Assembly: GCF_947492535.1 (NCBI RefSeq)
Contig: NZ_CANLNH010000013.1
Span: 62,001 to 126,000, forward strand
Direction: 5' to 3'
DNA length: 64,000 nucleotides
Origin: an uncultured Dokdonia sp.
GTDB lineage: Bacteria > Bacteroidota > Bacteroidia > Flavobacteriales > Flavobacteriaceae
In this document: positions 1,170 through 61,806 of the stretch, piece by piece
Numbering within the stretch: position 1 is the stretch's first letter
Layout of the letters: the number at the start of each line of letters is the position of its first letter
The notes under the pieces: model-generated
What the model saw: the letters and a program-made list of their open reading frames with translations, nothing else
Told to the model about the DNA's origin: nothing
The model's database searches: none
Translations under genes and position numbers: made by a program

Positions 1170-1193
1170 TATACGCTTTCGCGAAAGCGTATA
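1170..1193. repeat. Iterated palindrome, core GCTTTCGCGAAAGC (24-bp intergenic copy)
   Basis: A perfect 24-bp palindrome centred between 1181 and 1182, with the 14-base core extended by TATAC/GTATA arms. It sits in the divergent interval between the dipeptidase start and the T9SS cargo gene at 1334. Same family as the copies at 7966, 23136, 35380, 45723 and 51650. Confidence 0.9.
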
Positions 1194-1291
1194 TCTATAA
1201 AATAATAAGTAGCATAAAGTTAAAGATTAAGTTTTTAACCTATTAAAACAAAAGAAATTAGTACAGTTTCTAAATGATTTATATCTTTATT

Positions 1292-1318
1292 TACAATGTA
1301 TTATAAGTACAATGTATT
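1292..1318 (+). promoter_or_regulatory. 11-bp direct repeat just upstream of the T9SS cargo gene
   Basis: TACAATGTATT occurs at 1292-1302 and again at 1308-1318, a 16-base period, ending 15 bases before the ATG at 1334. A TATCTTTA sequence lies just upstream. It could be a regulator site or part of the leader; the sequence alone does not decide. Confidence 0.35.
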
Positions 1319-1333
1319 CATTTAAAGAATATT

Positions 1334-2086: not shown

Positions 2087-3298
2087 ATGATCCAATTTCC
2101 ACATATAAAAACACAGCGTCTAGCTATTAAACTAAAACCAAAAGCTGAAAAGCTAGTGAAACAAGGACATCCGTGGATTTTTGAAGATAGTATTGCTAAA
2201 CAGAATAAAGAAGGAAAAGCAGGAGATATAGCGATTCTTTTTGATCAGCGTAAAGACAAAGTGTTTGCAATAGGTTTATATGATCCAGATTCTCCCATAA
2301 GAATCAAAGTACTTAGTGCTGCTCCCGCAACTCCTGACACCTCTTTTTTTAAACAAAAAATCGATACTGCTTTTTCTAAAAGAGCCGAGTTGCTAGCAAC
2401 AGATACCGATAGTTATCGTTTTATTTTTGGAGAAAATGATGGATTCCCAGGCTTAATTGCCGATGTTTATAAGGATGTGTTAGTGGTTAAGTTGTATACA
2501 GGAATATGGTTTCCATACCTAGAAATGATCTTACCGGAGCTAGTCTCTATATCTAAAGTACGTACTGTTGTTATCCGATTGAGTCGTAATTTACAGAAAT
2601 CTAATTCACATGGATTTAAAGATGGACAAGTCATTCATGGGATATTACCTTCAGAAGTTATCTATTTTAAGGAACATGGGATACGCTTTTCTGCCAATGT
2701 AATTCATGGTCATAAAACGGGTTATTTCTTAGATCATAGACATAATAGAAAACGTGTAGGTGAGTTATCTAAAGGGAAAAAAGTGCTTGATGTTTTTAGT
2801 TATGCGGGCGGATTTTCTGTACATGCGCTTGCTGGCGGTGCTACTGAAGTCATAAGTTTAGATATCAGTGCACAAGCATTGCAAGTCGCGCTAGAGAATG
2901 GAAAATTAAATCCCAATACAGGAAAACACAGTATCATGGCTATCGATGCGTTTGTAGGTTTACAAGAACTTATAGACACACAGCAAAGGTTTGATATTGT
3001 AGTGATTGATCCTCCTAGTTTTGCTAAAAGTGCCAAAGAGATTGAAAGTGCTAAGCATAGTTATAGTAGACTGGCTATGTTAGGAACACAGTTGGTTGCA
3101 AAAAACGGAATATTAGTACTTGCATCTTGTTCTTCACGAATTACAGCTCAGCAGTTTTTTGATATTTCTGAACAAGGCATTTTAAAACATAAAGACGCTT
3201 TTAAAGTAATAGAAAAAACATTTCACGATAGTGACCACCCCATTGGATTTCCAGAGGGAGCCTACCTTAAATGTGGGTATTATCATTTAGATTCATAA
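2087..3298 (+). CDS. rlmI: Class I SAM-dependent 23S rRNA (cytosine-C5) methyltransferase, RlmI-like
   Basis: At 403 residues it has the RlmI/RlmL-C length and order. An N-terminal PUA-like RNA-binding domain carries the family hallmark GHPWIFEDSI near residue 28. The Rossmann methyltransferase half has the SAM-binding LDVFSYAGGFSVHAL and the catalytic IDPPSFAKS motif, followed by a Cys-containing ASCSSRI loop. The family methylates C5 of a 23S rRNA cytosine (C1962 in E. coli) in the cytoplasm. It stands 19 bases ahead of the GH20 gene on the same strand and may be cotranscribed, without an obvious functional link. The gene symbol is by family; the exact target base in this organism is inferred. 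Confidence 0.82.
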   Translation: MIQFPHIKTQRLAIKLKPKAEKLVKQGHPWIFEDSIAKQNKEGKAGDIAILFDQRKDKVFAIGLYDPDSPIRIKVLSAAPATPDTSFFKQKIDTAFSKRAELLATDTDSYRFIFGENDGFPGLIADVYKDVLVVKLYTGIWFPYLEMILPELVSISKVRTVVIRLSRNLQKSNSHGFKDGQVIHGILPSEVIYFKEHGIRFSANVIHGHKTGYFLDHRHNRKRVGELSKGKKVLDVFSYAGGFSVHALAGGATEVISLDISAQALQVALENGKLNPNTGKHSIMAIDAFVGLQELIDTQQRFDIVVIDPPSFAKSAKEIESAKHSYSRLAMLGTQLVAKNGILVLASCSSRITAQQFFDISEQGILKHKDAFKVIEKTFHDSDHPIGFPEGAYLKCGYYHLDS

Positions 3299-4873: not shown

Positions 4874-4881
4874 TCTAATGC

Positions 4882-7944: not shown

Positions 7945-7965
7945 TCATAACTTTACTTATTCTTT

Positions 7966-8032
7966 ATACGCTTTCGCGAAATCGAACTTGTGAGATTCAC
8001 GACCAAAGGGAGAGCGTAGCGTTAAAGCGTAA
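7966..8032 (+). repeat. 67-bp long form of the iterated palindrome family
   Basis: It starts with the left arm and core of the palindrome (ATACGCTTTCGCGAAA) and ends with the inverted arm TTAAAGCGTA, about 50 bases later. It aligns without gaps, 60 of 67 bases, to the reverse complement of 51650-51716. Here the core palindrome itself is damaged by a G-to-T change after GCGAAA. It occupies most of the gap between two genes on the plus strand. Confidence 0.8.
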
Positions 8033-9092: not shown

Positions 9093-10352
9093 TTAATGAA
9101 GTTTTTTTCCAGCGACATAGACACCTGCACTTGGTAACTCAAACAATTCTAAATCAAAATAAGAGATAGAAGCTAGAAAGTGATCAAAGATATCAGCCAT
9201 TATGTATTCATAGTTTTGCCATCGTTTGTCACTACTAAAACAATAAATTTCCAGAGGAATTCCCTGCGATGTAGGCGCTAATTGACGCGCCATGATCATC
9301 ATATCTTTATTAACAGCAGAATGCTGAGAGATATAGGTTTCCATATATTTTCTAAAAACACCAATATTAGTAAGATTACGACCATTTACTTGAAGTTCTC
9401 TTGAAATACCTAAGGTTGTATTAGAAGCTTCTATTTTCTCTTGACGATCGGTGAGATATGTTGTTATTAGATGAATTTGTTTTAGTTTTTCTATATCCTC
9501 ATTTGCTAAGAATTTTATACTCTCTTGTTTAATATATAAAGCTCTTTTGATACGCCTTCCATCAGAATCATTCATCCCGCGCCAATTTTTAAAACTATCT
9601 GAGATTAATGCATAGGTAGGTATAGTTGTAATGGTTTTGTCAAAGTTTTGAACTTTTACGGTGGCTAAGTTTATTTCTATAACATCTCCGTCAGCACCAT
9701 ATTTATCAAATGTGATCCAATCACCAATACGTACAATATCATTGGTGGCCACTTGAATACTAGCTACAAAACCTAGAATGGTATCTCTAAACACTAAGAT
9801 AATAACCGCCGAAATGGTTCCTAAACCAGCTAAGAACTTCCATAAGTCAATATCAGAGACAACAGCTAATGCTAGGAATACGCCTGCAAACCAAGCAAAA
9901 ATCATAAATACCTGAATGTAACTATCTATAGGTTTGTCTTTAAGTCTTGGTTTGGTTTTAAAATAACTCTTTAATGAGTTTAAGAAAGCACGTGCAATAC
10001 GTAATACCAATACAATTCCTAGTAATTGTAAAAATTTAATGGCAAAAAGCTCTAAATCTTTAAAGTCTTGAAAAATATGTGGTACCGTCCAATAGGCAAT
10101 AAGGAGTGGTAGTAAATGTCCAACACGTCTAGGAACTCTATTTTCTATAAGTAAATCATCGAGTTTTGTTTTTGAAGCTGTAGCGATCCCGCTAGATACT
10201 TTACGTAATATTTTTCGCGAAAGCATATCTACAATTAATAAGACAGCAACTAAAAGTATACATAAAACAATGACATTGACATAAGTTGCCACAGAGACAG
10301 AGAGTCCTTTATCAATTAAAAAATTATAGAGCCAATGGCTTATTTGTTTCAT
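9093..10352 (-). CDS. Mechanosensitive ion channel, MscS superfamily (YbdG/MscM-like)
   Basis: The roughly 419-residue protein has five N-terminal membrane helices and the MscS core: the pore-lining helix FLAGLGTISAVIILVFRDTILGF, followed by VASIQVATNDIVRIGDWI and the beta domain. The large C-terminal domain, including KNWRGMNDSDGRRIKR, is the pattern of the YbdG-type MscS homologues, longer than MscS itself. These channels release solutes on hypo-osmotic shock. I chose the ATG at 10352; the frame also opens from a GTG at 10373. Codons for MLSRKI contain a partial copy of the iterated palindrome at 10213. Confidence 0.88.
   Translation of the reverse strand: MKQISHWLYNFLIDKGLSVSVATYVNVIVLCILLVAVLLIVDMLSRKILRKVSSGIATASKTKLDDLLIENRVPRRVGHLLPLLIAYWTVPHIFQDFKDLELFAIKFLQLLGIVLVLRIARAFLNSLKSYFKTKPRLKDKPIDSYIQVFMIFAWFAGVFLALAVVSDIDLWKFLAGLGTISAVIILVFRDTILGFVASIQVATNDIVRIGDWITFDKYGADGDVIEINLATVKVQNFDKTITTIPTYALISDSFKNWRGMNDSDGRRIKRALYIKQESIKFLANEDIEKLKQIHLITTYLTDRQEKIEASNTTLGISRELQVNGRNLTNIGVFRKYMETYISQHSAVNKDMMIMARQLAPTSQGIPLEIYCFSSDKRWQNYEYIMADIFDHFLASISYFDLELFELPSAGVYVAGKKLH
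10213..10228. repeat. Partial iterated palindrome inside mscS
   Basis: TTTCGCGAAA (10213-10222) with only the right arm GCATAT preserved. It is read on the minus strand as LSRK near the N-terminus of the channel protein. Confidence 0.55.
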
Positions 10353-10438
10353 ACAATGAATAACTATTTGCACAAAAATAGTATTATTATAGGTTGATAA
10401 AGAATAAGAACGCCTAGAACTAACAAATCATTAGATAT

Positions 10439-11880: not shown

Positions 11881-14310
11881 ATGAACATCATTTATAGAGT
11901 ATCTGTTTTCTGTCTATTTGTTACATTGACAAGTTGTTTATCTGATCATGCCTCGACAATCTATCAACATACCATAGTTCCTGCTCCACAAGAGGTCTTA
12001 TTGGTCAATGATTTTATAGATATAACAACACTTCCAGAAAATTTAGGGACAACAGAAAATGACTTTGGTGCATTTCAGTTTTTATTAGATCAAGTCATAT
12101 TCGCACCACATTCTCTAGTTACTAAAGAAAACTTAACCTCAGATAGATTGCAATTAGAAATAACGACCTCTTTAGAAGAAGACGCATATGTGCTTGCATC
12201 TTCAGAAGATGCTATCCATATTTTAGGAGGAAGTGATCGTGCGGTACGTCATGGTATTATGACCTTATCTCAACTTATTACTGAGGAAGGTACTGTTCCA
12301 ATTGGGATTATTAAAGATCAACCTGATTATGAGTATCGATCATTGATGATTGATTTATCTCGTAATTGGCATTCGGTGGCAAACTTAAAACAATTAATAG
12401 CTCTTGCTGGATTTTATAAACTGAAGTATGTCCATGTACACTTAACAGATGATAGCCTATTTACATTTCCGAGTGAGGCATTTCCTAACTTAATGAGTGA
12501 GCAACACTATTCTAAAAATGATTTTAAGGAATTAAACGCTTTCGCGAAAGCGTATGGAATTACTTTAATACCAGAGATTGATATGCCAGGTCATTCAAGT
12601 GCTTTTATCCGTGCGGATGCAAAACGCTGGGCTATCGAAAATACTAATGCAAACTACTATACCTTAAACATGGGAAGTGAGCAAGTATATGAGGGTATTC
12701 AGGTTTTATTAGAAGAAGTCGCAGAAGCATTTCCTGAAAGTCCTTATATACATATAGGCGGTGATGAAGTCCACACAGGAGGGTTTGATACAGATCCTCA
12801 GGTACAAGCTTATATGAAAGAATACAAATTAGCCTCTCTTAATGACTTGTACCATCATTTTATCGTACGAGTAGGGGAACAAGTGAAAAAGGTCGGAAAA
12901 CAGCCTATGATATGGTCTGGGTTTAATGGGCAGAGTTCGGTTAACATCCCTAAAGATTTTGTGATTATGGCTTGGGATATGTCAGATTATACACCTCAAA
13001 TGCTACTGGATGATCAATATACTATTATTAATGCTTCTTGGAAACCATTATATGTCGTTAATAATCGTAAATGGTCTCCTGAAACTATTTATAATTGGTC
13101 CCCAAGACAATGGAAAACACATCAAACTCCAGACTCATTATCTGGACATTTAGTAAAACAATCTCAAATGATTGCTGGTGGTTCCATGTGTGCTTGGGAG
13201 CAAGGACAATATAAAGAACTGATAAGCTTACGTAAACGTCTTGCAGCAATGAGTGAACGGTTATGGAATTCAGACAAAACAGATTATACGTCGTATGTCT
13301 TAAGAAACAAGGCGTCTGATAAACAATTAGACGCTATTTTATTTCCTTTCAGGCTTATAGAAGAAGGATTGACACAAGGAGATTGGGAAGATGCCAATCG
13401 GTATGAGAATTTTCAATTTGAAGATACTTTATCTATAAAAATACAATCAAAGCAAGAGGATATCACAGTACATTATACACAAGATGGTCGTATACCTACA
13501 TTGACAGATCCTGTATATACAGCACCAATTATTTTACAAAAAACGGGCGTGATCTCTTTTCAGGCTTTCAAACACCAAAAAGCCATAGGACATACTTTAG
13601 AAAAGAAATATTTCTTAGCTCCTATAAAAGCGAATATAAAAGGGTTGATTACAGACTTACCACCGCATAGTTGGCAACATCATAAGTTTGCAGATTCTCT
13701 TACGCTTACATTTACAACAAAACGAAAAGGCACGTTACGATATACTATTGATGGGAATCGTCCTAAGGCAACAAGTACTATATACAAAGACCCTCTTGTA
13801 ATTCATGATACTAAGACCGTTCAAATAGGATTGTTTGACGATATGGATATGCAAATTGGATCTTCTTGGGGGCATGGGTATGTAAAACCTGGTCTAGAGA
13901 CAAGTTTAACAACGCATAAACCTGTAATTACAAGCCAAGGAGAAAATGAATTATGGACATCTTCACTAATCAATGATGGAGAGATTGCCCGCAGAGATCA
14001 CTGGGGGTTAAGAACCAATGGAAATAATTGGGCAGTTATAGATCTTGAAAACGAATATGTTATTACTAGATTTAAAACATATACCTATTGGGATGGCAGC
14101 CGATTTTATGAATATACGATAGATGTTTCTGTAGATGGAGATTCTTGGCAACAAGTGGTGGATAGAAGTACAAATAGAGAAATATCTACTCCAGAAGGCA
14201 CTGAAGACCATATATCTCCTACAAAAGCACGCTTTATACGATTAAATCTGTTGAGAAACAGCGCTAACCCTAGTTTACATTTAGTAGAATTTCAAGCTTT
14301 TGAGGATTAA
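11881..14310 (+). CDS. Multidomain GH20 beta-N-acetylhexosaminidase lipoprotein with C-terminal chitobiase and F5/8-type domains
   Basis: The 809-residue enzyme has a lipoprotein signal (TLTSC, Cys19), a GH20 N-domain, and a TIM barrel with YRSLMIDLSRNWHS, HVHLTDDS, PEIDMPGHS and catalytic Asp295-Glu296 (HIGGDEVHTGG). After residue 500 come chitobiase-type beta-hexosaminidase C-terminal repeats (VHYTQDGRIPTLTDPVY; LRYTIDGNRPKATS) and a discoidin-like F5/8 C domain (ITRFKTYTYWDGSRFYEYTIDVSVDG to FIRLNLL). This is the common Bacteroidota layout for surface GlcNAc/GalNAc release from glycoconjugates. Codons 220-225 (AFAKAY) are encoded by an in-frame copy of the iterated palindrome at 12536, placed in the barrel helix before PEIDMPGH. 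Confidence 0.93.
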   Translation: MNIIYRVSVFCLFVTLTSCLSDHASTIYQHTIVPAPQEVLLVNDFIDITTLPENLGTTENDFGAFQFLLDQVIFAPHSLVTKENLTSDRLQLEITTSLEEDAYVLASSEDAIHILGGSDRAVRHGIMTLSQLITEEGTVPIGIIKDQPDYEYRSLMIDLSRNWHSVANLKQLIALAGFYKLKYVHVHLTDDSLFTFPSEAFPNLMSEQHYSKNDFKELNAFAKAYGITLIPEIDMPGHSSAFIRADAKRWAIENTNANYYTLNMGSEQVYEGIQVLLEEVAEAFPESPYIHIGGDEVHTGGFDTDPQVQAYMKEYKLASLNDLYHHFIVRVGEQVKKVGKQPMIWSGFNGQSSVNIPKDFVIMAWDMSDYTPQMLLDDQYTIINASWKPLYVVNNRKWSPETIYNWSPRQWKTHQTPDSLSGHLVKQSQMIAGGSMCAWEQGQYKELISLRKRLAAMSERLWNSDKTDYTSYVLRNKASDKQLDAILFPFRLIEEGLTQGDWEDANRYENFQFEDTLSIKIQSKQEDITVHYTQDGRIPTLTDPVYTAPIILQKTGVISFQAFKHQKAIGHTLEKKYFLAPIKANIKGLITDLPPHSWQHHKFADSLTLTFTTKRKGTLRYTIDGNRPKATSTIYKDPLVIHDTKTVQIGLFDDMDMQIGSSWGHGYVKPGLETSLTTHKPVITSQGENELWTSSLINDGEIARRDHWGLRTNGNNWAVIDLENEYVITRFKTYTYWDGSRFYEYTIDVSVDGDSWQQVVDRSTNREISTPEGTEDHISPTKARFIRLNLLRNSANPSLHLVEFQAFED
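12536..12553. repeat. Iterated palindrome inside GH20 gene
   Basis: An 18-bp perfect palindrome, ACGC-TTTCGCGAAA-GCGT, read as N-A-F-A-K-A-Y in the barrel of the hexosaminidase at a position where the family normally has a variable A-x-A-K-x-x-G-I helix end. Confidence 0.85.
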
Positions 14311-14994: not shown

Positions 14995-17427
14995 TTATTC
15001 CTGAATCCTCGCTTTCTCAGTATCGGCGCTAGATCTACTTGTTCCTTCTTTTACTTTTGTATTTCCAAATGGGTATGAAAAACTAATACGCCAAATACTA
15101 GAAATTGTAGATTCTGGCCGGAAGCGTACATCAAAGACATTGTCATAGACTTCTGTTGTAAGATCACCGACTTGTGATTTGATATCAATACTTTTAAAGA
15201 TATCGGTGACACTCAATTGTAGACTACTCCCATTTTTAAATTCCTTTTTTACTCCTGCATTTACAGACCCAAATCCTCTCACCGTAGCACTTCCATTAAA
15301 ATGCTTTGACGTATACCACCCAGATAGTTCTAGTGAAATTTTTGAAGGAAATTGTATGGTCTGACTGCCATTAAAATTGTAATGTACATAGTCATGTGTA
15401 AGCTGGTCTCTCGTATGTAGTAATTTAAATTGTCGTACCCCAATCGTACCATTAAGATTCAGTTGCCACCAGTTATTTATTTTGACAGGGATATTGGATT
15501 GGAAGTCTATACTATTTTGATATTTCAAATTTTGAGGAGCTATAATAGCAAGATCACTACGATCATCTTCGGTTACTTGAAAACGCGCCAATGGATTGTC
15601 TTCTTGTGTCGCAATTAAAGAGAAACTATAGGACTTATAGGCATAAGTAGCTGTGAGCGTATTTGTAATGGCAGGAGAAAGCTGCGGATTTCCACTAAAA
15701 ACCGATGTAGGACTATTATAACTTAAGAAAGAAGCGAGGTCTGTATAATTAGGTCTTGTGATTCTACGTGTATAAGCAAAATTCCAGCTTTTAGTATCAG
15801 ATACTGTTTTGGTAATAAATAGCGAAGGAAATAATTGTCCAAAACGTCTATCTAAGCTGGCATCATCAAATTCTTGATTCCAATATTCATAGCGAAGACC
15901 AAGTTGGGTATTGATTGTAGGGCTTAGTTGATAATTTGCAATTCCATAAATAGCTCCAATTTGCTCTGTATTTTCATTGATATTTATAAATCGAGGATCG
16001 GTGACGAAGGTATCTCCTTCTTGAATTTCAATACGTGCATTGTTTGTTGTTTTAGACAATGACCCTTTTAGGCCTCCTTCTAAGCTTAGTTTATTATTGA
16101 TAGGTCTACTGTAATCTACTTTTAAAACACCTACATCAATAGAAGTGCTATTGGTGCCTCGATTTCCATTGTTATAAATCTCCCCTTCAGGTTGAAAGGG
16201 CGTTCCATTTTCATCTAAATAGATACTTTGTACGTTGTTTGGTGTATCATTTTTGTAATTTATATAATCTGCAGTGATTCCAAAGGTATGTTTGTCATTT
16301 TTGGTTTCAAAGAAGGCTGAGGTATTATAATTTTTCCATTGTCCATCAGCTTGTAAATTAATACGCGCATCTAGAAATGGATTTGTTGGAAAGTTATAGA
16401 GTCCGCGGTTATCTGTAGTAATCGCAGGGTTGGATTGATTGTATAAAAGACTTACACCAAAAAGAGATTGTTTTGTAAGTTGATGCTCAAAGCCAGATGT
16501 GATATTATGACTTCTATTAAGTTGTGATGTTTCACTGGTGAAGTCTATAAAAGTTTCTCCTCCAAATACAGGTATATTAGTCCTTCCGAGACCATTCCAA
16601 GTACTGTAGGTATCGTCATAAGAAAATGAATATGTACCGTATACAGTAGTTTTCTCGGTTCCATAATTAAGTGATAGACTGGTGGTTTGTTTAAACCCTT
16701 CTCCATATCCAGCCGATAGGGTTGCATTTCCTCTTGTGCCTAATGCTTCATTTTTATCGAGCACAATATTTATAATTCCGGCATTCCCATCGGCGTCATA
16801 ACGTGCAGAAGGATTGGTAAGGAGTTCTATCTTTTTAATATTGTCGGCGCTCATTCCTTGTAATAGTGTAATAAGGTCTGAAGTCGGAATTCGTTGTGTT
16901 TTTCCATTAATCATAATCGTAGTTCCACTTTTTCCATTTAGTGAAAAGCTATTATTTCGTTGATCTAAAATGACACCTGGTGAGCGTTCTAATACCTGTA
17001 AAGCAGAGCTTCCCTTGGTAAGAATACTACTCTGTACATTAATAATACTGCCTTCCTGTGTGCGTTCGATGAGCTTCTTTTTGGCGACGATAGCAACTTC
17101 ATCTAAAGCGGTAGCTTCCTCTAATAGTGTAATGATTGGGATTGTTTTTGTGTCCGCTTTCGCGAAAGCGAACGACTCCGAATTCCATGTTTGATAGGAT
17201 AATAAATTCACCTGTAAGGTATATTGACCTGTTGGGATATCGTCTATTTTAAAATCACCCGTTTCATTTGTAATAACCCCTTTTATAAGTTCTTGGGTAT
17301 CGCTTGTGAATAACATTACATTAGCGAAAGGAATTGGATTTTCGCTTGAATCTATGACATGACCCGTTACTTGACTATAGCCAGTATATGTAATTATTAA
17401 TACTATTAAAAGGATATGTATTCTCAT
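14995..17427 (-). CDS. TonB-dependent outer-membrane receptor (carboxypeptidase-regulatory-like domain plus OMP_b-brl_3 barrel)
   Basis: The protein (about 810 aa) has a signal peptide ending in TGYSQ, a carboxypeptidase-D regulatory-like beta domain (VTGHVIDSSENPIPFANVML), a plug (LQVLERSPGVILDQRN, SLNGKSGTTIMINGK, IKKIELLTNPSARYDADGNAGIINIVL) and a long beta-barrel. It lacks the SusC length and there is no SusD gene, so it is of the shorter OMP_b-brl_3 type. The substrate is unknown. It is divergent from the LytS/LytR pair at 17642, a pairing seen for this barrel family. I chose the ATG at 17427 over a TTG at 17451. An in-frame palindrome copy encodes F-A-F-A-K-A-D at 17155. Confidence 0.9.
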   Translation of the reverse strand: MRIHILLIVLIITYTGYSQVTGHVIDSSENPIPFANVMLFTSDTQELIKGVITNETGDFKIDDIPTGQYTLQVNLLSYQTWNSESFAFAKADTKTIPIITLLEEATALDEVAIVAKKKLIERTQEGSIINVQSSILTKGSSALQVLERSPGVILDQRNNSFSLNGKSGTTIMINGKTQRIPTSDLITLLQGMSADNIKKIELLTNPSARYDADGNAGIINIVLDKNEALGTRGNATLSAGYGEGFKQTTSLSLNYGTEKTTVYGTYSFSYDDTYSTWNGLGRTNIPVFGGETFIDFTSETSQLNRSHNITSGFEHQLTKQSLFGVSLLYNQSNPAITTDNRGLYNFPTNPFLDARINLQADGQWKNYNTSAFFETKNDKHTFGITADYINYKNDTPNNVQSIYLDENGTPFQPEGEIYNNGNRGTNSTSIDVGVLKVDYSRPINNKLSLEGGLKGSLSKTTNNARIEIQEGDTFVTDPRFININENTEQIGAIYGIANYQLSPTINTQLGLRYEYWNQEFDDASLDRRFGQLFPSLFITKTVSDTKSWNFAYTRRITRPNYTDLASFLSYNSPTSVFSGNPQLSPAITNTLTATYAYKSYSFSLIATQEDNPLARFQVTEDDRSDLAIIAPQNLKYQNSIDFQSNIPVKINNWWQLNLNGTIGVRQFKLLHTRDQLTHDYVHYNFNGSQTIQFPSKISLELSGWYTSKHFNGSATVRGFGSVNAGVKKEFKNGSSLQLSVTDIFKSIDIKSQVGDLTTEVYDNVFDVRFRPESTISSIWRISFSYPFGNTKVKEGTSRSSADTEKARIQE
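17155..17170. repeat. Iterated palindrome inside the TonB receptor gene
   Basis: A 16-bp perfect palindrome (CGC-TTTCGCGAAA-GCG), read on the minus strand as AFAKA in a loop of the N-terminal beta domain. Confidence 0.85.
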
Positions 17428-17641
17428 AATCTTGGATTGTTGATACCGCAATAACTACAGAGAATTCATAGAAAGAAAATAGGATTGCTAAGAGGTAGAA
17501 GATTCTTTATAAGCGGTATATCATGCTAAAAACAAGCATTTGCAGACGATACTTAGGTGTAAATAGCCACTTATCAATTATTTCTTACTTCTTGTCAAAT
17601 AATCTATAGTAATTACTTAGGTCTTATTGTATTTTTATAGA

Positions 17642-23135: not shown

Positions 23136-23157
23136 ATACGCTTTCGCGAAAGCGTAT
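23136..23157. repeat. Iterated palindrome after the ABC exporter
   Basis: A 22-bp perfect palindrome with core GCTTTCGCGAAAGC, 38 bases after the exporter stop. It can form a 9-10 bp hairpin with CGCG loop but lacks a U-tract. Confidence 0.9.
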
Positions 23158-27169: not shown

Positions 27170-27187
27170 CGAATTTTTACAATGGTA

Positions 27188-27201
27188 GCTTTCGCGAAAG
27201 C
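27188..27201. repeat. Iterated palindrome between araC-like and hydrolase genes
   Basis: The bare 14-base core GCTTTCGCGAAAGC followed by GTA. It lies upstream of the chosen start at 27229 and argues that the longer open frame from 27166 is not translated. Confidence 0.85.
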
Positions 27202-27228
27202 GTAATCTTTGCAAAAAACAATACTATA

Positions 27229-32077: not shown

Positions 32078-35000
32078 ATGAAAAAAGTAATTCTCTTAGG
32101 ACTGTTATGTCTTTATTCCATTTCTCATGCTCAAAAAATTCCTACTCTAAAAGTAGATGATAAACCTCTTGGGCTTTCTTCTCTGAATATAGACGTAGTC
32201 GTTACCGGTAATATTGCCACAACGACATACGATATGCAATTTTACAACCCAACAAATGCTGTTTTAGAAGGTGCTCTAGATTTCCCGTTAGGAGATAGGT
32301 TTTCGGTATCTAGATTTGCACTTGATATTAATGGAAAACTCAGAGAAGCTGTTGTAGTAGATAAAGAACTAGGACGTGTTGCCTTCGAAGCTGTCGTGCG
32401 TAGACGTGTAGATCCCGCATTATTAGAAAAAGGAACGGGAAATAATTATAAAGCACGTATCTATCCAATACCAGCCAAAGGTTACAAACGTATTGTACTT
32501 GCTTATGAACAAGAGTTGAAATTATCAGAAGGTAAACATTACTATGATATACCGCTAGCGTTTCAAAATGAATTAGAAAATTTTGATCTTAAAATCACGG
32601 TATTTGATCAAAAAACAAAACCTATTATAGAAAAAGGAACAATCGATGGTTTAGGGTTCACGCCATGGCAACAAAACTTCACAACGGCAGTACATAAAGA
32701 AAACTATATAGCTAACAAGCCTATTCGTATTCAAATTCCTATAGAAGAAACTGTTGCAAAAAAGTTGCGAAATGATGAATACATCTATGTGTATACAACA
32801 GTAAACAAGCAGAAAAGAACACGAAGAAAGCCTAAAAAAATCACCTTATTATGGGATGCTTCTTTAAGCATGAAGACTAGAGGTCTAAAAAAGGAATTCG
32901 ATCTTTTAGATGCCTATTTCAAAGACCTTTCAAATGTAGATGTAACACTTGTCACATATAGTAATGCGATTAGATCAACAGCTACTTATAGAGTAAAAAA
33001 CAAACAATGGGCAGCTCTCAAAAATGCGTTAGAGACTACAGTCTATGATGGAGGAACCGACTATTCTATACTTACGGATCAAAAATTCAAAGGAGATGCC
33101 ATCTTATTATTCACCGATGGGATGCATACACTAAGTACGCTTGATATGTATAGTAAAATACCTGTTTTTACTGTAAATAGTGTGGTGAAGGCAAATCACC
33201 AAGCATTACGTCAACTAGCAACGACAACGCATGGAGCCTATATAAATCTTATAAATACAGAGACAAAAGAAGGCATATCTATACTTACCGAGCAATCTTT
33301 TCAGTTTTTAGGATATACATCTACAAATACACACGCAGAGATCTATCCAAATACAGCACAGGCAGTGACTAATGATTTTTCAATGGCTGGAAAAAACCTT
33401 AAAAATGGAGATCGTATTACGTTGCAGTTTGGATATGATGGAAAGGTATCTCATAAAGTTGAGATTGTGGTTGATAACGCTTTCGCGAAAAGCGATATCA
33501 TAAAACGTCTTTGGGCAAAAGAAAAACTCCAAATACTAGCACAAAACGTAAAAGAAAATAAAGAAGTTATTACAGCATTAGGAACGACCTATCAATTAGT
33601 AACAGATTATACGTCATTAATTGTACTTGATGATGTGATGGATTATGTGCGTTATAAAATCACACCACCGGAAGAACTACAAGAGGAATACAACCGAATT
33701 GTATCTCAAAAAAAGAATGTTGGAGTAGCAAAGGCTGTAGTTAATGGTGATCAAAGAATCGATAATACGGCATCTGAAAGAAGAGCAAGGGTTTCAGAGG
33801 GAGAACCATTGGATATGATGGGAATTTCTTCAAACAGTCCACCACCTCCGCCAGCACCTGAAATCATAGAAGTTGTAGATGACGAAGAAATTATTGAAGA
33901 AGAGATTATCGGAATAGAAGAGGTAGAGGCGATTTCATATGGTTTTTCAGAAGCTCCAAATGCATTGGTTTATCAGAGAGAAGCAAATGATTTAAATGCA
34001 ATGCCAGTTGATGGGTTTTTAGATGGAGGTGTTCCTTTTGTAGCATTAGATATCCCTCCAATATATCCTGGCTGTGAAGATGCTTCCAATAAAAATAACT
34101 GTTTCCGAGATAGCGTGGGTGATTTTGTGATGCAAAATTTTAATGAAGAGGTGTATGCTAATGAACAAATCTTACAACCCGGTAGATCAAGAATATTAAT
34201 TACGTTTAAAATAGATACCCTTGGACAAATAAAAGATGCGAACGCTAGAGCAGGAAATTCTATTTTACAACAAGAAGCGATACGTGTAGTAAAAAGTCTT
34301 CCTAAAATGCGCCCTGGAGAGCAAAATAAGAAAAGAGTCGAGGTCGTATATTCATTACCAATTACGATTATTATTCCAGATAACGGACAAACGCCAATAA
34401 CTCCTGCATATCCAAAATATAAAGGGAAACTTAGTGTAAAAGATCGAAGCATTAGTACACCATATCTGAATGAATTACGTGAGATAAAAGATGTGGGAAA
34501 AGCCTATGAATACTATCTCATACAACGTACTTCGTATCAAAAAGAACCTGCTTATTTTATAGATGTAGCTAACTTCTTTAAGAACACATTTAATCATCCA
34601 ATATATGCAAGACGTATTGTGTCTAATATTCCAGAGATGGATGGCGATGATTACGAATTACTAAAAGTATTTGGATATCAGATGCAATTAGAAGAAGCTC
34701 ATGATATTGCAGCATATATTTTTGAGCGAATACTAGAATTACGCCCTGAAGATTCACAATCTTATAGAGACTTAGCACTTGCTTATGAAACGATAGGAAA
34801 ATGCCAAGAAGCTTTAGATTTATTGATGTCTATTGTAGATGGAAGTATTTATGAGAATAATCAGCGACGTGTATTTAACGGCGTTAAAACCATTTCAGAA
34901 AAAGAAATCGAGCATCTTGTTTATGAATATAAAGATGATTTGAAATTAGATAGTGTTCCGCCGTATTATAAAGATATAATGCCCTATGATGTTCGTGTTG

Positions 35001-35379: not shown

Positions 35380-35403
35380 TATACGCTTTCGCGAAAGCGT
35401 ATA
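35380..35403. repeat. Iterated palindrome after the VIT-vWA gene
   Basis: A 24-bp perfect palindrome identical in its arms to the copy at 1170, 33 bases after the VIT-vWA stop codon. Confidence 0.9.
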
Positions 35404-51618: not shown

Positions 51619-51649
51619 GGTGGTGTGTTGTTAATATGATGGTGGTGGT

Positions 51650-51716
51650 ATACGCTTTAACGCTTCGCTTTCCCTCTGGTCATGAACCTCACAAGTTCGC
51701 TTTCGCGAAAGCGTAT
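51650..51716 (-). repeat. 67-bp long form of the iterated palindrome family
   Basis: In reverse complement it aligns without gaps to 7966-8032 (60 of 67 identical). Its right end contains an intact core (51698-51713); its left end ATACGCTTTAA is the inverted arm. The interior holds AAGTTC and GAACCTCA-type inverted bases that could form a second hairpin. It lies between two lipoprotein genes. Confidence 0.85.
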
Positions 51717-51722
51717 AAAACA

Positions 51723-52649
51723 TTACTTTAATAATTGATGTACGCCTTTTTCTAATGAATATAGCGTTGTAATTTCTTCTTGAGATAAGTGCTTATTATA
51801 GATAGAAAGTTCATCCATAAGACCTATATATCCTAGACCTAAGTAAATATTAGATTTTTCTAACTCCCAGGTAAATGGGTCTTTGATGTCTTTTCGAATG
51901 CCTTTAAGTTCGCCATTCATATAAAGAGCAGCTTTTCCTTGTGCTGTATTTAAGCCTGTATAATTAATAAGGATGTGCGTCCAAGTTCCTTTAGCAAACG
52001 GCGGATTAGAAACGCCTTTCAATTGTTCTATAAAAATTGGATTTTCATTATCAGGACCTTTTGGTTCTGGGTTCCAACTATCTCGATCTCCTATGACACC
52101 TAAGCGGAAGTCTCTAGGGTTTTCTTTTGTGAAATCCACCCAAATCGCAGCGTCATTATAACTGACATCTGTAATCTGAATAGGGTCACAATAGCCAGGA
52201 TCAAGATCTGTCGCAGGATCAAGGCTTAGCCAAAACGAAATAGCACCTTCCCAATTTTCTGTGTTATATGCAATATTATTTTTACTCGGGTAGTAGATAT
52301 ATCCGCGGCTATCTTCAGCGTATAAGAGGGCATCTCCAAAATGTCCTTCTCCTTTAGAAATGCTAACTCCTTGTTTATGCAGTCCTACTTGTGCAGAGTC
52401 TCTTGCTTTTCGATTAGGGACAGAATATAATTGCGCATCTCCCAATGCAAAATCGGCATTGACTCCATTATCAAAAGATGCATAGAGTGTTAATGCATTT
52501 TTTAAGGATGCATTATTAGGATTTACTTTTTTAGTGACTGTTGTTTCAGTTTCTTTTTTTGTCGTTTCATTTTTACATGAAATACTTGAGAGTACTAAAA
52601 TTCCACATAAAAGTAAGGTAGAAGAGGTCTTAAAAGGGTTAAAAATCAT
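51723..52649 (-). CDS. LamG/concanavalin A-like domain lipoprotein
   Basis: The 308-residue protein has a lipoprotein signal (SSISC), a Thr/Lys-rich linker (about 25-45) and a jelly-roll LamG_3 domain: LTLYASFDNGVNADFALGD, GDALLYAEDSRGYIYYP, GAISFWLSLDP, WTHILINYTG, AALYMNGELKGI and LGYIGLMDELSIYNKHLSQEEI. Such domains bind glycans or other surface ligands. No catalytic domain is attached. Cotranscription with the acylase gene is possible despite the 104-base gap. Confidence 0.87.
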   Translation of the reverse strand: MIFNPFKTSSTLLLCGILVLSSISCKNETTKKETETTVTKKVNPNNASLKNALTLYASFDNGVNADFALGDAQLYSVPNRKARDSAQVGLHKQGVSISKGEGHFGDALLYAEDSRGYIYYPSKNNIAYNTENWEGAISFWLSLDPATDLDPGYCDPIQITDVSYNDAAIWVDFTKENPRDFRLGVIGDRDSWNPEPKGPDNENPIFIEQLKGVSNPPFAKGTWTHILINYTGLNTAQGKAALYMNGELKGIRKDIKDPFTWELEKSNIYLGLGYIGLMDELSIYNKHLSQEEITTLYSLEKGVHQLLK

Positions 52650-54132: not shown

Positions 54133-55023
54133 TTAATTCAATTCAGCTTCTGCATGACGTTTTGCTTTGTTGAGTGTGAGTTTATTGTCAAACTGGAGTG
54201 TTCGTATAGGGAATGGGATGTCTATGTTCGCTTTCGCGAAAGCTTTCTTAATCTCAATAATAGCTTTACTTTTTGCTTTTAACTTTGGAATTCCTGAAGT
54301 TCCGTCAATCCAAAAACGGACTATAAAATGAACTGCACTTTCACCAAAATTAGTATAATAAAACTCAACTTCAGTATCTAATAATTCTTGGTTAAAATGA
54401 GTGTTTATAACATTGGTGGTAAGTGATTCTACTTTTTCTAAATCACAATCATACCCGACACTACAATTAATTGTAATACGCATTTTTGATGTTAAAGAGT
54501 AATTTTTTAAAGGATTCTCCAAAATCAATTTGTTGGGAAGTACGACAATGTTATTATCTGCCTCTTTCATTACAAAGTAATTAGTATTAATATCCATGAC
54601 TTCACCAGTGTATCCATTGGTCTCAATCCAATTACCAATTTTTATATTTTTTCTAAAAGATAAAATGATTCCTGAAAGCGTGTTAGATAATGTTCCTTGA
54701 AGAGCTAAACCTATGATCAATCCAGAAATACCAGCCGCCGATAATATTGTTTTTAAGGTGCCACTTAAATTTAGGAGATTCAATATAATGAGAAGTCCAA
54801 AAGAAATCACAATTATCGAAGAAAATCTAGCGATTAATCTTGTAATAGAGGTTTTGTGTATTTTCTTGTAAATAAGTTTTAATACAATATTATAGATGAA
54901 TCTTGACATAAAATAAGTAGCTATCATTACTACTATCGCTAAAATAATATTTGGTAAACTTGTTATGAGTATTTCTCCCCAATTACTTATTCTATCTGTT
55001 ATTTGTTTTATTCCTTCTTCCAT
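54133..55023 (-). CDS. mscS: Small-conductance mechanosensitive channel, MscS family
   Basis: The 296-residue protein has the canonical MscS size: three membrane helices (ILAIVVMIATYFMSRFIYNIV; FSSIIVISFGLLIILNL; pore helix TILSAAGISGLIIGLALQGTLSNTLSGI with the Gly/Ala packing), the beta domain (KIGNWIETNGYTGEVMDIN, VVLPNKLILENPLKNYS) and the C-terminal alpha/beta domain. It opens on hypo-osmotic shock. An in-frame palindrome copy encodes AFAKAN near the C-terminus (54230). It heads a group of osmotic and ion genes. Confidence 0.92.
   Translation of the reverse strand: MEEGIKQITDRISNWGEILITSLPNIILAIVVMIATYFMSRFIYNIVLKLIYKKIHKTSITRLIARFSSIIVISFGLLIILNLLNLSGTLKTILSAAGISGLIIGLALQGTLSNTLSGIILSFRKNIKIGNWIETNGYTGEVMDINTNYFVMKEADNNIVVLPNKLILENPLKNYSLTSKMRITINCSVGYDCDLEKVESLTTNVINTHFNQELLDTEVEFYYTNFGESAVHFIVRFWIDGTSGIPKLKAKSKAIIEIKKAFAKANIDIPFPIRTLQFDNKLTLNKAKRHAEAELN
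54230..54243. repeat. Iterated palindrome inside mscS
   Basis: The 14-bp core GCTTTCGCGAAAGC, read on the minus strand as KAFAKA just before the conserved IDIPFP of the channel's C-terminal domain. Confidence 0.85.
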
Positions 55024-58143: not shown

Positions 58144-58268
58144 TTATTGTGGTTCAAAAATGTGTAGTTACTATCGTAAATATGATAAACAAGATAGGAA
58201 AAACTTATAGTTACATATTACAGAAGAATTAGAAAAATATGTTTTAGTAGTAATAAGTTTTGTATTTT

Positions 58269-59705
58269 ATGAATGCTATGGAAAACAAAAAACGAATACT
58301 TCTTACCGGGGCAACAGGATATATAGGGAAGCGATTACTTCCTATTCTTCTAGAACAGGGATATCATGTGATATGCTGTGTGAGAGATGTGAATCGTTTT
58401 TCGCCTCCACAGTCTTTAAGCGCCTCAATAACTGTTATTAAAATAGATCTTCTAGATTCAAAATCATTAGATGTCATCCCTAAAGATATTGACGGTGCCT
58501 ATTATTTAGTACACTCTATGTCCAGTAGTGATAACTATAAAAAACTAGAACTAGAATGCGCCACTAATTTTAGAACAGCCTTAGAAACAACAAACGTAAA
58601 ACATCTTATCTACTTAAGTGGAATTGTAAATGAAGATAATTTATCAAAACACTTATCTTCTCGTAAAGATGTAGAAATAGAACTATCTAAGGGAAGTTAC
58701 AATGTTACAACCTTGCGGGCAGGAATTATTATTGGTTCAGGAAGTGCTTCTTTTGAGATCATACGAGATATTGTAGAAAAATTACCCATTATGATTACCC
58801 CAAAATGGTTAAAAACAAGATGTCAACCCATTGGAATTACAGATGTGCTCGCGTTTTTATCAAAAACACTGTTCCATAAAGAGACTTATAATCAAAATTT
58901 TGACATTGGAGGATCCGATATATTGTCTTATAAAGACATGCTGTTAGGATTTGGTGACAAGCGTAATTTAAAACGTAGTATTTTTATTATTCCTGTGATG
59001 ACCCCTCGGTTATCATCATATTGGTTATACTTTGTGACATCCACTTCCTATAAACTAGCTACAGCACTTGTAAGTAGTATGAAAGTAGAGGTGATATGTA
59101 GAGATAATAGATTGGCTGATATTTTAAACATACAACCATTATCATATAGAGAAGCATTAGATAAGGCCTTTGTTAAAATTCAAAGGAATCAAATTGCGTC
59201 TAGTTGGAAAGATGCTCTTATCAGTGGTGAAATGAATATAGAAATATCTGACTTTATTAAAGTACCTAGTTTTGGGTGTTTTATTGATAAACGCTCAAAA
59301 CGCTATAATGATAGAACACATACCATAGATAAAATTTGGCGTATCGGAGGCAAGACAGGATGGTATTATGCAACGTGGTTATGGAAGGTAAGAGGCTATA
59401 TCGATAAACTTTTTGGGGGCGTTGGCTTGCGTAGAGGACGAACCAATGAAGATACTCTTATTGCAGGGGATTCGGTTGATTTTTGGCGGGTATTATATTC
59501 TAATAAAGAAGAAGGGAGATTGTTGTTATTTGCCGAAATGAAATTACCAGGTGAAGCTTGGCTAGAATTTAAAATAGAAAAAGATCAATTAGTTCAAACG
59601 GCTACCTTTAGACCTCTCGGACTATCAGGACGGTTGTATTGGTTTTCTGTATTACCTTTTCACGGATTTATTTTTAAAGGGATGCTTGCGAAACTTACTG
59701 CATAA
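58269..59705 (+). CDS. SDR-family NAD(P)-binding protein with C-terminal DUF2867
   Basis: The protein of about 478 residues starts at ATG 58269 (a TTG at 58260 opens the frame; another ATG is at 58278). Its N-terminal half is an atypical SDR: nucleotide-binding GATGYIGKRL, then DGAYYLVHSMS and NVKHLIYLSGIV. The C-terminal half has the DUF2867 pattern (IWRIGGKTGWYYATWLWKVRGYIDKLFGG, ending in YWFSVLPFHGFIFKGML). Proteins of this two-domain type are common in Bacteroidota and Proteobacteria with unassigned reactions. No YxxxK catalytic pair is evident, so a redox activity is not certain. Confidence 0.87.
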   Translation: MNAMENKKRILLTGATGYIGKRLLPILLEQGYHVICCVRDVNRFSPPQSLSASITVIKIDLLDSKSLDVIPKDIDGAYYLVHSMSSSDNYKKLELECATNFRTALETTNVKHLIYLSGIVNEDNLSKHLSSRKDVEIELSKGSYNVTTLRAGIIIGSGSASFEIIRDIVEKLPIMITPKWLKTRCQPIGITDVLAFLSKTLFHKETYNQNFDIGGSDILSYKDMLLGFGDKRNLKRSIFIIPVMTPRLSSYWLYFVTSTSYKLATALVSSMKVEVICRDNRLADILNIQPLSYREALDKAFVKIQRNQIASSWKDALISGEMNIEISDFIKVPSFGCFIDKRSKRYNDRTHTIDKIWRIGGKTGWYYATWLWKVRGYIDKLFGGVGLRRGRTNEDTLIAGDSVDFWRVLYSNKEEGRLLLFAEMKLPGEAWLEFKIEKDQLVQTATFRPLGLSGRLYWFSVLPFHGFIFKGMLAKLTA

Positions 59706-59793
59706 ATTTTGTCCTCAACATGCATATGCGTATTTTCAAGCCATCAAATGTATTTGACTATCTAAACGCTATTATAATTTGACCCTATACTAA

Positions 59794-61806
59794 ATGAAAA
59801 CATTCCTTTATTCTCTATGTATGTTGTGTATAACGACTGTAGTCGCACAAGAAAATACACGTTGGAAAATCGCTGATTCTAACATTATTCAATGGACTAT
59901 AGAAAATAGTAATTTACCTCATAGTGATAATATCGAAATGGCTGGTACTAAAGTGGCTGGTATTGTATCTTATGACGTAGATGCAGCTGGGAATTTGGAA
60001 ATCGAACGCCAAGTGTTTTACCCGCAATTACATCCACATATCAAGGAATCAGATCCAGATTGGTTTGTATTTAGAGCGTATTTAAAAGAGACATACACAG
60101 ATGCGGTATTACCAAAATTTTATATTAATGAGAAACAATTTTCTCCAGGCGCTTTAAAGGAGGTCACTATCAACGGAATCATCACTTTTGTGCACACGGC
60201 TAGTAAAAGTGGTGTTACGCTTTCGCGAAAGCTATACCCGTCTCCAAACCAACGTTTGTTTATAGAAGAGTTACATCTTGTTAATACGTCAAATACACCT
60301 GTAACCATAGCCTATGAAGGTATTTCGAATACACAAACAAAGCAAGGCATAGGAGGCACATTTAGATATAGTGTACAAAGCAAGGGAGATGAGAAAACGA
60401 CACTCCAACCAGGAGCTTCTGTTACGTATCAGCTTCATTTTACCGCACAGCTTAACGAAGAGCCTACTGTAGTAGACGATCAAAGTCTTGAAAAACGAAC
60501 ACGTTTCTTAGAAGAAATGCAGCAAAACTTGATTTTAGAAACACCCAATCCCATTTTTAATCAGCTTTTTGAGTTTTCTAAAATCCGCGCTTCAGAGAGT
60601 ATTTTTGATTCAAAATTAGGATTGATACATTCTCCAGGAGGTGGACGCTATTATGTAGGGATCTGGGCAAATGATCAAGCCGAGTATGTAAGTGCCTTTT
60701 TTCCATATCTAGGCTATGAAGTTGGAAATGAAAGTGCGATGAATTGCTATCGTGCGTTTGATCGTGTGAAATCACCAACCTATGAACCTATACAATATGC
60801 ATTTGAAGTAGAAGAGCGTAAACCACCAGCCTTATTAGATAGAGGAGATGCTGCGATGATTGCGTATGGTGCAACACAATATGCATTGGCAAGAGGAAAT
60901 CAAGCCGAAGCCGAAGAACTTTGGGATTTAATTTCTTGGTCTCTAGAATATAATGATCGCAATCTTACGAATGAAGGTGTTGTCAAATCACAATCTGATG
61001 AGATGGAAGGGCGTATAGAAACCGGAGATGCTAATTTATCTACATCATCATTGTACTATGGAGCTTTAACTAATGCTGTATATTTAGCAAAAGCACTGAA
61101 TAAACCAGCCACGCTTATTGAAAAATACACAAAAGATGCTACACAACTTAAAATAGCTATCGAAAATTACTTTGGAGATACAGTAGAAGGGTTAGAAACC
61201 TATAAATACTATAAAGAGCATACGACACTTAGACATTGGATTTGTTTGCCATTAGTTGTCGATATTAATGATCGTGCAGAAGCTACTACAGAAGCATTGT
61301 TTGATCGATTATGGACAGATAATGGCGTACATGTTGAGAAGAATAATCCAGATAAAAAAGTATCAGAAATTTTCTGGGACAGAGGAACATTATATGCATT
61401 ACGAGGGGTATTAAGAGCTGGAGCTACAGAACAATCTATAGAACGATTAGCACAATTTTCTAAAACACGCTTACTTGGAGAGCGTGTGCCATATGTAGTA
61501 GAAGCATTTCCGGAGGGAGGGATGGCACATCTTTCTGCCGAAAGCGGATTGTATTGCCGTGTGTTTACTGAAGGTCTATTTGGAATTACACCAACAGGTT
61601 TTGATAGCTTTACCATACAACCAAGATTACCTAAAGATTGGAATGAGATGGCATTACGCCATATCCGTTTATTTGGGAAAGATTTCGATATAGAAATACA
61701 ACGTAACGGTACCAGAATGAATGTTCTCATTAAAGATGCAACGACAGGAAAACTCATTAGTAAAAAGAAAACAAAAGGGGATAAGCCTCTATCTTTTACC
61801 ATGTAA
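59794..61806 (+). CDS. Secreted six-hairpin ((alpha/alpha)6) glycoside hydrolase
   Basis: The 670-residue protein has a signal peptide ending in TVVAQ, an N-terminal beta-sandwich domain (about 25-230) and an (alpha/alpha)6 barrel with Trp/Asp/Glu-rich helix ends: SPGGGRYYVGIWANDQAEY, LLDRGDAAMIAYG, SQSDEMEGRIETGDANLSTSSLYYGAL, and WDRGTLYALRG. A closing beta-segment (GITPTGFDSFTIQPRLP) is of the type found in GH78, GH95 and related six-hairpin glycosidases. The GH number and the sugar cannot be fixed without search. An iterated palindrome copy (60219) encodes LSRKL in the N-terminal domain. Confidence 0.8.
   Translation: MKTFLYSLCMLCITTVVAQENTRWKIADSNIIQWTIENSNLPHSDNIEMAGTKVAGIVSYDVDAAGNLEIERQVFYPQLHPHIKESDPDWFVFRAYLKETYTDAVLPKFYINEKQFSPGALKEVTINGIITFVHTASKSGVTLSRKLYPSPNQRLFIEELHLVNTSNTPVTIAYEGISNTQTKQGIGGTFRYSVQSKGDEKTTLQPGASVTYQLHFTAQLNEEPTVVDDQSLEKRTRFLEEMQQNLILETPNPIFNQLFEFSKIRASESIFDSKLGLIHSPGGGRYYVGIWANDQAEYVSAFFPYLGYEVGNESAMNCYRAFDRVKSPTYEPIQYAFEVEERKPPALLDRGDAAMIAYGATQYALARGNQAEAEELWDLISWSLEYNDRNLTNEGVVKSQSDEMEGRIETGDANLSTSSLYYGALTNAVYLAKALNKPATLIEKYTKDATQLKIAIENYFGDTVEGLETYKYYKEHTTLRHWICLPLVVDINDRAEATTEALFDRLWTDNGVHVEKNNPDKKVSEIFWDRGTLYALRGVLRAGATEQSIERLAQFSKTRLLGERVPYVVEAFPEGGMAHLSAESGLYCRVFTEGLFGITPTGFDSFTIQPRLPKDWNEMALRHIRLFGKDFDIEIQRNGTRMNVLIKDATTGKLISKKKTKGDKPLSFTM
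60219..60232. repeat. Iterated palindrome inside the glycosidase gene
   Basis: The 14-bp core GCTTTCGCGAAAGC, here read in a different frame from the AFAKA copies, as TLSRKLY. Confidence 0.85.

Follow-up and report, generated by a model that had tools for sequence, protein, structure and literature searches.

A perfectly palindromic 14-bp core, GCTTTCGCGAAAGC, with weaker flanking arms, was found to be iterated far above chance in the genome of a marine bacterium of the genus Dokdonia, to be kept in place in relatives and to be spaced more evenly than simulations predict. We consider the palindrome to be best explained as the dyad binding site of a putative, probably dimeric protein that would act chromosome-wide and need about one site per 3-4 kb, a reading to which we assign a probability of roughly 0.42. 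The window referred to below is the whole 64-kb stretch of DNA that was analysed.

Copy number and structure of the palindrome

A preliminary description of the window had reported 13 copies of the 10-mer TTTCGCGAAA, far above chance and mostly with perfect arms. Exact matching returned 13 copies with exactly the starts given there, compared with a mean of 0.09 and a maximum of 1 in 100 dinucleotide shuffles of the window, and the count was thereby borne out. Perfect arms of at least 7 bp, giving palindromes of 14-24 bp, were present in 10 of the 13 copies, while those at 7972, 10213 and 33481 consist of the 10-bp core without longer arms. The sites are given below together with a dispersed repeat ('B') that occurs at two of them. 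Gene coordinates come from a crude, purpose-made ORF caller; G000 is the genome of the window, G011 is D. pacifica, and G007, G014, G015 and G017 are relatives used in the alignments.

1170..1193: TATACGCTTTCGCGAAAGCGTATA, a 24-bp perfect palindrome between genes; G011, G015, G007 and G017 have the core at this position, and in three of these the local alignment stops within the motif
7960..8031 (+): dispersed repeat 'B', starting in the palindrome; at least 11 further matches in the same genome, the window's second copy among them
7972..7981: 10-bp core in the left end of the dispersed repeat (~70 bp); G007, G015 and G014 carry the plain palindrome at the orthologous position
10213..10222: core in the MscS-like gene 9093-10373 (-); retained in G011 and G014, gap-free TTTCGTGAAA in G015, missing in G017
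12536..12553: 18-bp palindrome in the GH20 gene 11881-14310 (+), translated AFAKA
17155..17170: 16-bp palindrome in the outer-membrane beta-barrel gene 14995-17451 (-)
23136..23157: 22-bp palindrome between genes, its core 44 bp beyond the stop of 21320-23098 (+)
27188..27201: 14-bp palindrome early in gene 27166-28377 (+), which matches Pfam Beta-lactamase (PF00144)
33481..33490: 10-bp core in the VIT-domain gene 32078-35347 (+)
35380..35403: 24-bp palindrome between genes, its core 40 bp beyond a stop codon
45723..45742: 20-bp palindrome between genes; G011 and G015 have the core at this position
51639..51719 (-): second window copy of repeat 'B'
51698..51713: 16-bp palindrome between genes, its core 13 bp beyond the stop of 51723-52649 (-), at the end of the second dispersed-repeat copy
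54230..54243: 14-bp palindrome in the MscS-like gene 54133-55023 (-)
60219..60232: 14-bp palindrome in gene 59794-61806 (+), which has no Pfam match at 1e-8

The copies are not confined to the window, as the whole genome (4,863,283 bases) holds 1,094 of them and only 21 of a reversed-pattern control. The comparison with a third-order Markov model, which the preliminary description had set beforehand as a test, revealed an excess: an 864-kb sample of the genome that includes the window contained 201 sites (402 on both strands), while 1.7 are expected on both strands. Called genes hold 110 of these 201 copies. The motif is commoner between genes and shortly past stop codons, and where a gene ends towards an intergenic copy, the copy lies a median of 30 bp beyond the stop codon of that gene.

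The centre of the motif is nearly invariant. The four bases intervening between ACGCTTT and AAAGCGT were CGCG in 48 of 48 cases, and when CGCTTT and AAAGCG were placed 0-12 bases apart, CGCG lay between them in 92 of 94. Cores with one mismatch were above chance (94 observed compared with 61, 40 and 37 expected under Markov models of orders 2, 3 and 4), chiefly at T3/A8 and slightly at both end positions, with no excess in the central CGCG.

Conservation of position and mode of loss

The preliminary description had also proposed conservation of position in related genomes as a check, and such conservation was evident. Looser first counts were inflated because local alignments can stop inside a conserved motif; the counts given here are restricted to sites lying 40 bases or more from the ends of an alignment. 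Starting from G000, the position was kept in D. pacifica at all nine sites (control 10-mers, 13%) and in G016 at 12 of 19, while in the reverse directions 9 of 10 sites of D. pacifica and 12 of 15 sites of G016 were kept in G000 (controls for G016, 3.1-3.3%). Positional conservation holds across ~70% identity, and in G014 sites were poorly kept (1/4). Motif codons whose amino acid was unchanged were identical in 32 of 36 cases for G016 (background 0.47), 16 of 16 for G011 (background 0.63) and 51 of 57 for five relatives pooled, counts that are not fully independent because each site contributes two or three codons. Positions are conserved at the DNA level, in genes as well as between genes and at synonymous positions too. 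Within genes the motif is lost via substitution, not excision: motif-free orthologues there are mostly gap-free. Between genes some motif-free orthologues differ by gaps, and single-base losses do occur between close genome pairs.

Spacing along the chromosome

The gap CV was 0.65 compared with a simulated 0.99 +/- 0.07 (0 of 2,000 simulations as low), and for C1 it was 0.66 compared with 1.03 in simulations preserving the coding/intergenic share (0 of 3,000 as low). Pairs closer than about 1 kb were scarce. Among similarly abundant words (254 in G000 and 44 in G016), the motif 8-mer had the smallest gap CV in both genomes. G016, a single contig, carries 5-9 copies per 20-kb bin with an index of dispersion of 0.23. 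The evenness in G000 is visible in short gaps, its 20-kb index of dispersion being only 0.57-0.59 and equalled by 4 of 254 ordinary words (0.56-0.62). Past the short-range exclusion no periodicity was seen, 20 samples of G016 gave no evident ori-ter gradient or preferred chromosomal region, and no auto-regulated gene was evident beside the closest site pairs.

Distribution among genomes and phage contigs

Hundreds of copies were present in each of the 17 other Dokdonia genomes searched, and in a family-wide draw of 397 genomes such numbers were reached only in Dokdonia and two other genera. An equivalent word of comparable strength was not found in motif-poor genera (100 kb each of G046, G057 and G133); the top words in the 100 kb of G133 look like a local repeat. 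Small clusters of the motif occur in other genera, one annotated cluster being a metal-efflux gene cluster, and the motif may therefore mark DNA once resident in these hosts. No description of the motif was found among the titles and abstracts listed in a literature search that took in PMC4390886, PMC1939737 and PMC3478194, each as partial text, with most subscription journals outside its coverage.

Some apparently temperate phage contigs, selected for carrying the motif, have one copy per 4.7-8 kb and are sparser than the host in this respect; single 14-mer matches among the viral contigs listed are at chance level. The terminase of the G430 phage was matched in none of 22 motif-rich genomes in a search that had no positive control, and Nonlabens phages P12024S/L, whose host may not carry the motif, have 0 copies. 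Even spacing, copies on phage and the limitation to three genera all lay beyond what the preliminary description had foreseen.

A proposed dyad site for a chromosome-wide protein

Several roles had been offered for the palindrome at the outset, and among these a dyad site for a chromosome protein still fits best, while a mobile-element remnant and a terminator hairpin (see below) did not hold up. A sequence-specific putative protein would bind the palindrome, probably as a dimer, and would act over the entire chromosome, either in nucleoid architecture or in some other DNA-maintenance step of limited reach. The benefit of a site would drop when a second one lies within ~1 kb, and prophages would retain theirs because long stretches of chromosome lacking any site would be costly.

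Noc, ParB, SlmA and MatP likewise are dimeric chromosome proteins with dyad sites, and the TTTC...GAAA of the motif is similar to parS and to the Noc site. Sites of these proteins are, however, far fewer than copies of the Dokdonia motif, which in addition shows no evident preferred region and is not accompanied by an extra ParB paralogue. A search for the binding protein returned no candidate and no extra ParB-family gene. PF02195 (ParB family) gave one match in 14 of 15 motif-rich and 13 of 15 motif-poor genomes, and with counts so alike an extra ParB/Noc paralogue was rejected. A marker-protein regex scan of the genome sample gave no match.

Alternative explanations

Self-recognition of the DUS/USS kind, in which preferential import and recombination of motif-bearing DNA spreads and maintains the motif, is an unlikely explanation, even though the density of DUS/USS is comparable at hundreds of copies per Mb. 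The motif shares with them its enrichment between genes and past stop codons, its substitution-based change in genes and its even spacing, and its presence in few genera only also agrees with uptake. Intergenic enrichment of uptake sequences is noted in PMC1939737, which cites Karlin et al. for a significantly even DUS/USS spacing and itself doubts that this spacing is even enough for compaction. On the other hand, DUS are non-palindromic according to the same paper, unlike the Dokdonia motif, and the motif is found on apparently temperate phage contigs. A conserved pilus-type uptake ATPase was rejected, as PF00437 (PilT/PilB/GspE ATPase) was above cut-off in only 5 of 15 motif-rich genomes, G000, G016 and G222 not among them. 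Nothing on uptake sequences in Bacteroidetes was found among the papers listed, as judged by title and start of abstract.

The preliminary description had likened the motif to HIP1, with a longer and different core. As a likeness this stands: both are over-represented genome-wide, genes included, both are palindromic and both are clade-specific. The sequence itself is not that of HIP1 (GCGATCGC, about one per kb), the Dokdonia core having 14 bp and about one copy per 3-4 kb. A length of 14 bp is long for a methyltransferase site, which counts against a HIP-type origin. In the HIP1 model (Elhai 2015), a methyltransferase or mismatch-repair bias would make and protect the palindrome as an epiphenomenon, which for Dokdonia we regard as decidedly unlikely. 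PMC4390886 describes HIP1 and alternate HIPs of cyanobacteria as iterated in coding and non-coding DNA, clade-specific and with fewest deviations centrally; the Dokdonia motif is likewise abundant in coding DNA, and its deviations avoid the centre. It differs, however, in its presence on apparently temperate phage contigs. Of two methyltransferase families, PF00145 was present in 6 of 15 motif-rich genomes (missing from G000 and G222 among the other nine) as well as in 9 of 15 motif-poor ones, and among the motif-rich genomes PF01555 exceeded its cut-off in 2 of 15. As neither of the two families tested is conserved, the role of methylation target suggested earlier is weakened, not refuted.

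It is improbable that the palindrome is a Chi-like two-way signal at which a helicase-nuclease of the AddAB type would turn from degrading DNA to recombining it, so that self DNA is marked. Known Chi sites are short, oriented and non-palindromic, whereas the Dokdonia core is perfectly palindromic, 14 bp long and without orientation. One site per 3-4 kb and presence on phage contigs would suit such a signal, and in C2 of G000 two adjoining PDDEXK_1 open frames (924 and 1,053 aa) look like AddB and AddA. The PDDEXK_1 nuclease family was found in 30 of 30 genomes, motif-bearing or not, motif-poor genera included, so that the presence of AddAB cannot explain the restriction to three genera. The number of copies, about 1,000 per genome, is similar to the 1,008 Chi sites of E. 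coli in a table of PMC1939737.

An origin as relics of a miniature mobile element (MITE/REP), with TATACGCTTT at its ends, would account for the shared ends of the ~70-bp dispersed repeats (7960-8031 and 51639-51719) and for the gaps between genes, but we judge this very improbable, as it goes against the mostly gap-free motif-free orthologues in coding DNA and the age of positions conserved across ~70% identity. At 7972 three relatives have a plain palindrome and the longer repeat is present only in G000 and G011; the repeat thus seems to have inserted into a palindrome that was already old. That the motif is a transcription terminator or other RNA hairpin is hardly credible, since, in spite of the position of intergenic copies shortly beyond stops and the ability of the 24-mer to form a hairpin, the sequence after the motif is A-rich and has no U-tract at 68 sites (on which grounds an intrinsic terminator was rejected), more than half of the copies lie within called genes, the CGCG centre is invariant and the 14-mer core has no folding advantage over shuffled sequences.

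Significance

What makes some genomes amass hundreds to thousands of copies of a single short word is a long-standing question, raised by HIP1 and by uptake sequences. The Dokdonia palindrome allows architecture, methylation and uptake to be separated, in a marine bacterium that is not a known pathogen, because the word is long, its centre is near-invariant, its exclusion distance is measurable, and it is abundant in only three of the sampled genera and shared with apparently temperate phage contigs. More tentatively than the binding site itself, and as a possibility about which we remain doubtful, Dokdonia and the two other genera may possess a novel chromosome-wide lattice, in which a dimeric protein would sit on identical dyad sites at a controlled spacing of ~3-4 kb and to which resident phages would be fitted. 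The spacing rule offers a quantitative handle on the reach of a single site.

Copy number and anatomy of the palindrome

The preliminary description had listed 13 copies of the 10-mer TTTCGCGAAA in the window, and all of them were present where 0.09 would be expected; perfect palindromes of 14-24 bp were formed by 10 of the 13, in line with that description. The motif also reaches beyond the window, with 1,094 copies in the genome that holds it (G000) against 21 for a reversed control, the pattern read backwards, while GCTTTCGCGAAAGC occurs 827 times in the same genome. The Methyltrans_SAM/PUA protein encoded at window 2087-3298 matched D. pacifica DSM 25597 at 87%, and its following seven matches, at 70-85%, all carried a Dokdonia label, which assigns the genome to this genus.

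Among 201 sites in a G000 sample of 863,804 bases (contig C1 as a whole, 200 kb of contig C4 and the window) the consensus was TATACGCTTTCGCGAAAGCGTATA, with the 14-bp core as its strongest part. The CGCG centre was found in 48/48 cases between ACGCTTT and AAAGCGT and in 92/94 with shorter arms. Single-mismatch forms of the core numbered 94 on both strands compared to about 40 under a third-order and 61 under a second-order model, an excess that lay mostly at T3/A8, was slight at the end positions and was at chance level in CGCG. Called genes contained 110 of the sites (0.146/kb) versus 91 between genes (0.83/kb). Intergenic sites facing a gene's end were located at a median of 30 bp beyond the stop codon, and the suggested role as an RNA hairpin was not supported for a terminator, as no U-tract followed the 68 sites in this orientation.

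Spacing of the sites

Gaps in the G000 sample had a coefficient of variation (CV) of 0.65 versus a simulated 0.99 +/- 0.07, a value as low as this being reached in none of 2,000 simulations, and only 13 gaps were below 1 kb compared to 41 expected. The outcome was unchanged for C1 when the coding/intergenic share was kept in the simulation. In the single-contig genome of a relative (G016), each of 20 stretches of 20 kb around the chromosome held 5-9 copies, and the index of dispersion was 0.23 for these stretches and 40 kb more. Pairs of sites less than 1 kb apart occurred at 0.08-0.39 of random in these two genomes, with recovery by about 1.5-3 kb. Among words of similar abundance, the motif 8-mer had the lowest gap CV of 254 in G000 and of 44 in G016; its index of dispersion was likewise lowest in G016 and second lowest (0.57) and not exceptional in G000.

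Conservation of the sites

All 11 window sites aligned to the probable D. pacifica genome (G011) were exact (control 17.5%), and other relatives kept 4/5 (G015), 2/3 (G014), 2/2 (G007) and 1/2 (G017) with controls of 5-13%, counts that are biased upward because a local alignment can end in a conserved motif. Two of the 13 sites, 23142 and 54232, were outside the alignments with every relative. With the count restricted to sites lying 40 bases or more within an alignment, 9/9 were kept from G000 to G011 and 9/10 in reverse (controls 13-14%), as were 12/15 from G016 to G000 and 12/19 from G000 to G016 (controls 3.1-3.3%); G015 gave 1/2 in both directions, G014 1/4 to G000 and 1/1 from it, and G017 0/1. 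Some counts were lower after this recheck but the odds were not, since the controls stay far below. Single-base losses in close pairs of relatives (4/5 kept in G003 versus G016, 5/6 in G006 versus G009) are little informative because the controls were 48% and 59%.

In coding copies, codons with an unchanged amino acid were identical in 51/57 cases pooled over relatives, comprising 32/36 in G016 (background 0.47), 16/16 in G011 (0.63) and 3/5 in three others. The constraint therefore acts on the DNA and not only on the protein.

Dispersed repeats

Two types of dispersed repeat occur in the window.

Window 7960-8031 and 51639-51719: repeat 'B', about 70 bp, ...GTGAG...TTCACGACC..., its end being the palindrome
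Window about 37060-37125 and 40230-40300: repeat 'C', ...GTTTATGCTGAG...CGAAGT...

The 10-bp core was contained in 6/6 'B' copies recovered with one regex from the 864-kb sample, some of which carry an inner CCTGCCTGCCGGCAGGCAGG palindrome. At position 7972 of the window, the repeat is seen in G000 and G011, and three relatives carry a plain palindrome. The palindrome had been proposed as a possible remnant of a mobile element; these 'B' copies and the site at 7972 point the other way, in that palindrome-ended repeats appear to have invaded old palindromes. The first of the 'C' places holds an intact palindrome in G011 and the second holds one in G015, and 6/11 'C' copies in the sample lie within palindrome remains by a crude string test.

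Distribution among genera

The 14-mer was present in 369-905 copies in each of the 17 other genomes searched within the genus, and it was absent from all 21 genomes outside it, which covered six further genera of the family and another 15 families in the order. Among 397 genomes drawn from the family, six had hundreds of copies: G000 and G012 (Dokdonia), all three g26 genomes and the single g206 genome. Below these the highest count was 19, and at least one copy occurred in 80 of the 397. In a phylum draw of 395 genomes, hundreds were found in G000 only, the next count being 6, and 22 had any copy. The g206 genome has the identical core at 46% G+C, and samples of 100 kb from three motif-poor genera revealed no word of comparable strength.

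In a tree of ParA+ParB built on 554 columns from 18 genomes, g206 adjoins Dokdonia with 98% support, and g26 (L404, L405) forms a long, poorly placed branch away from Dokdonia with 26% support. This one-locus tree suggests, without proving, transfer of the motif system or its repeated loss. The same 14-bp motif is found in g26 despite the position of its ParAB branch.

The few 14-mers of other genera are often clustered, and many fetched clusters (among L177-L195) are mutually homologous. L180, the only one annotated, encodes six proteins (RND efflux, outer-membrane efflux, multicopper oxidase, permease and P-type ATPase); this cluster probably moved between genera, taking its motifs along. 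A motif pair exactly 933 bp apart is shared by five genomes (G110, G119, G133, G192 and G246).

Several candidate protein families were compared with the distribution of the motif. A single ParB-family match in 14/15 motif-rich genomes (Dokdonia, g26 and g206) spoke against an extra ParB/Noc paralogue, a C5 methyltransferase family was found in 6/15, and a PF01555 methyltransferase exceeded the cut-off in 2/15. The type IV pilus/T2S ATPase was over cut-off in 5/15 motif-rich versus 1/15 motif-poor genomes, and PDDEXK_1 nuclease did not discriminate, being present in 30/30 genomes with or without the motif. No protein binding the motif was found among these.

Viral contigs

The 16 viral contigs, all picked by motif scan among the matches listed, comprised nine with several 14-mers, one from an 18-mer scan and six with a single hit. 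Six carried 4-8 copies in 24-40 kb, or one per 4.7-8 kb; G428 and G436 are evidently pieces of G429. Terminase, Mu portal, head protease, capsid and sheath families mark G429 and G430 as Mu-like, and integrase or recombinase families are present in G431, G432 and G433, with G434 closely related to G432, so these contigs look temperate. The nearest annotated record to the G430 terminase, at 56% identity, is from Winogradskyella phage Peternella_1, which has zero motif copies in 39,649 bases. Between G429 and G430, 2/4 sites were kept and 2/3 in reverse (controls 1.7% and 3.0%), while the 4/4 aligned sites kept between G432 and G434 are weak evidence given a control of 54%. Nonlabens phages P12024S/L (L419, L420) have no TCGCGA in 35.7 kb each, possibly reflecting avoidance.

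Interpretation

The palindrome was marked as belonging to a known kind, the highly iterated genomic word. A DNA uptake sequence would have many features in common with it, as would a HIP-type word, and both readings are retained as rivals; each has an expectation that the part tested did not bear out. The evenness of the spacing, a constraint on the DNA itself both within genes and between them, the full symmetry of the motif and its copies on apparently temperate phage contigs fit a candidate chromosome-wide binding site of limited reach. Keeping such a site seems to be worthwhile mainly where no other is near.
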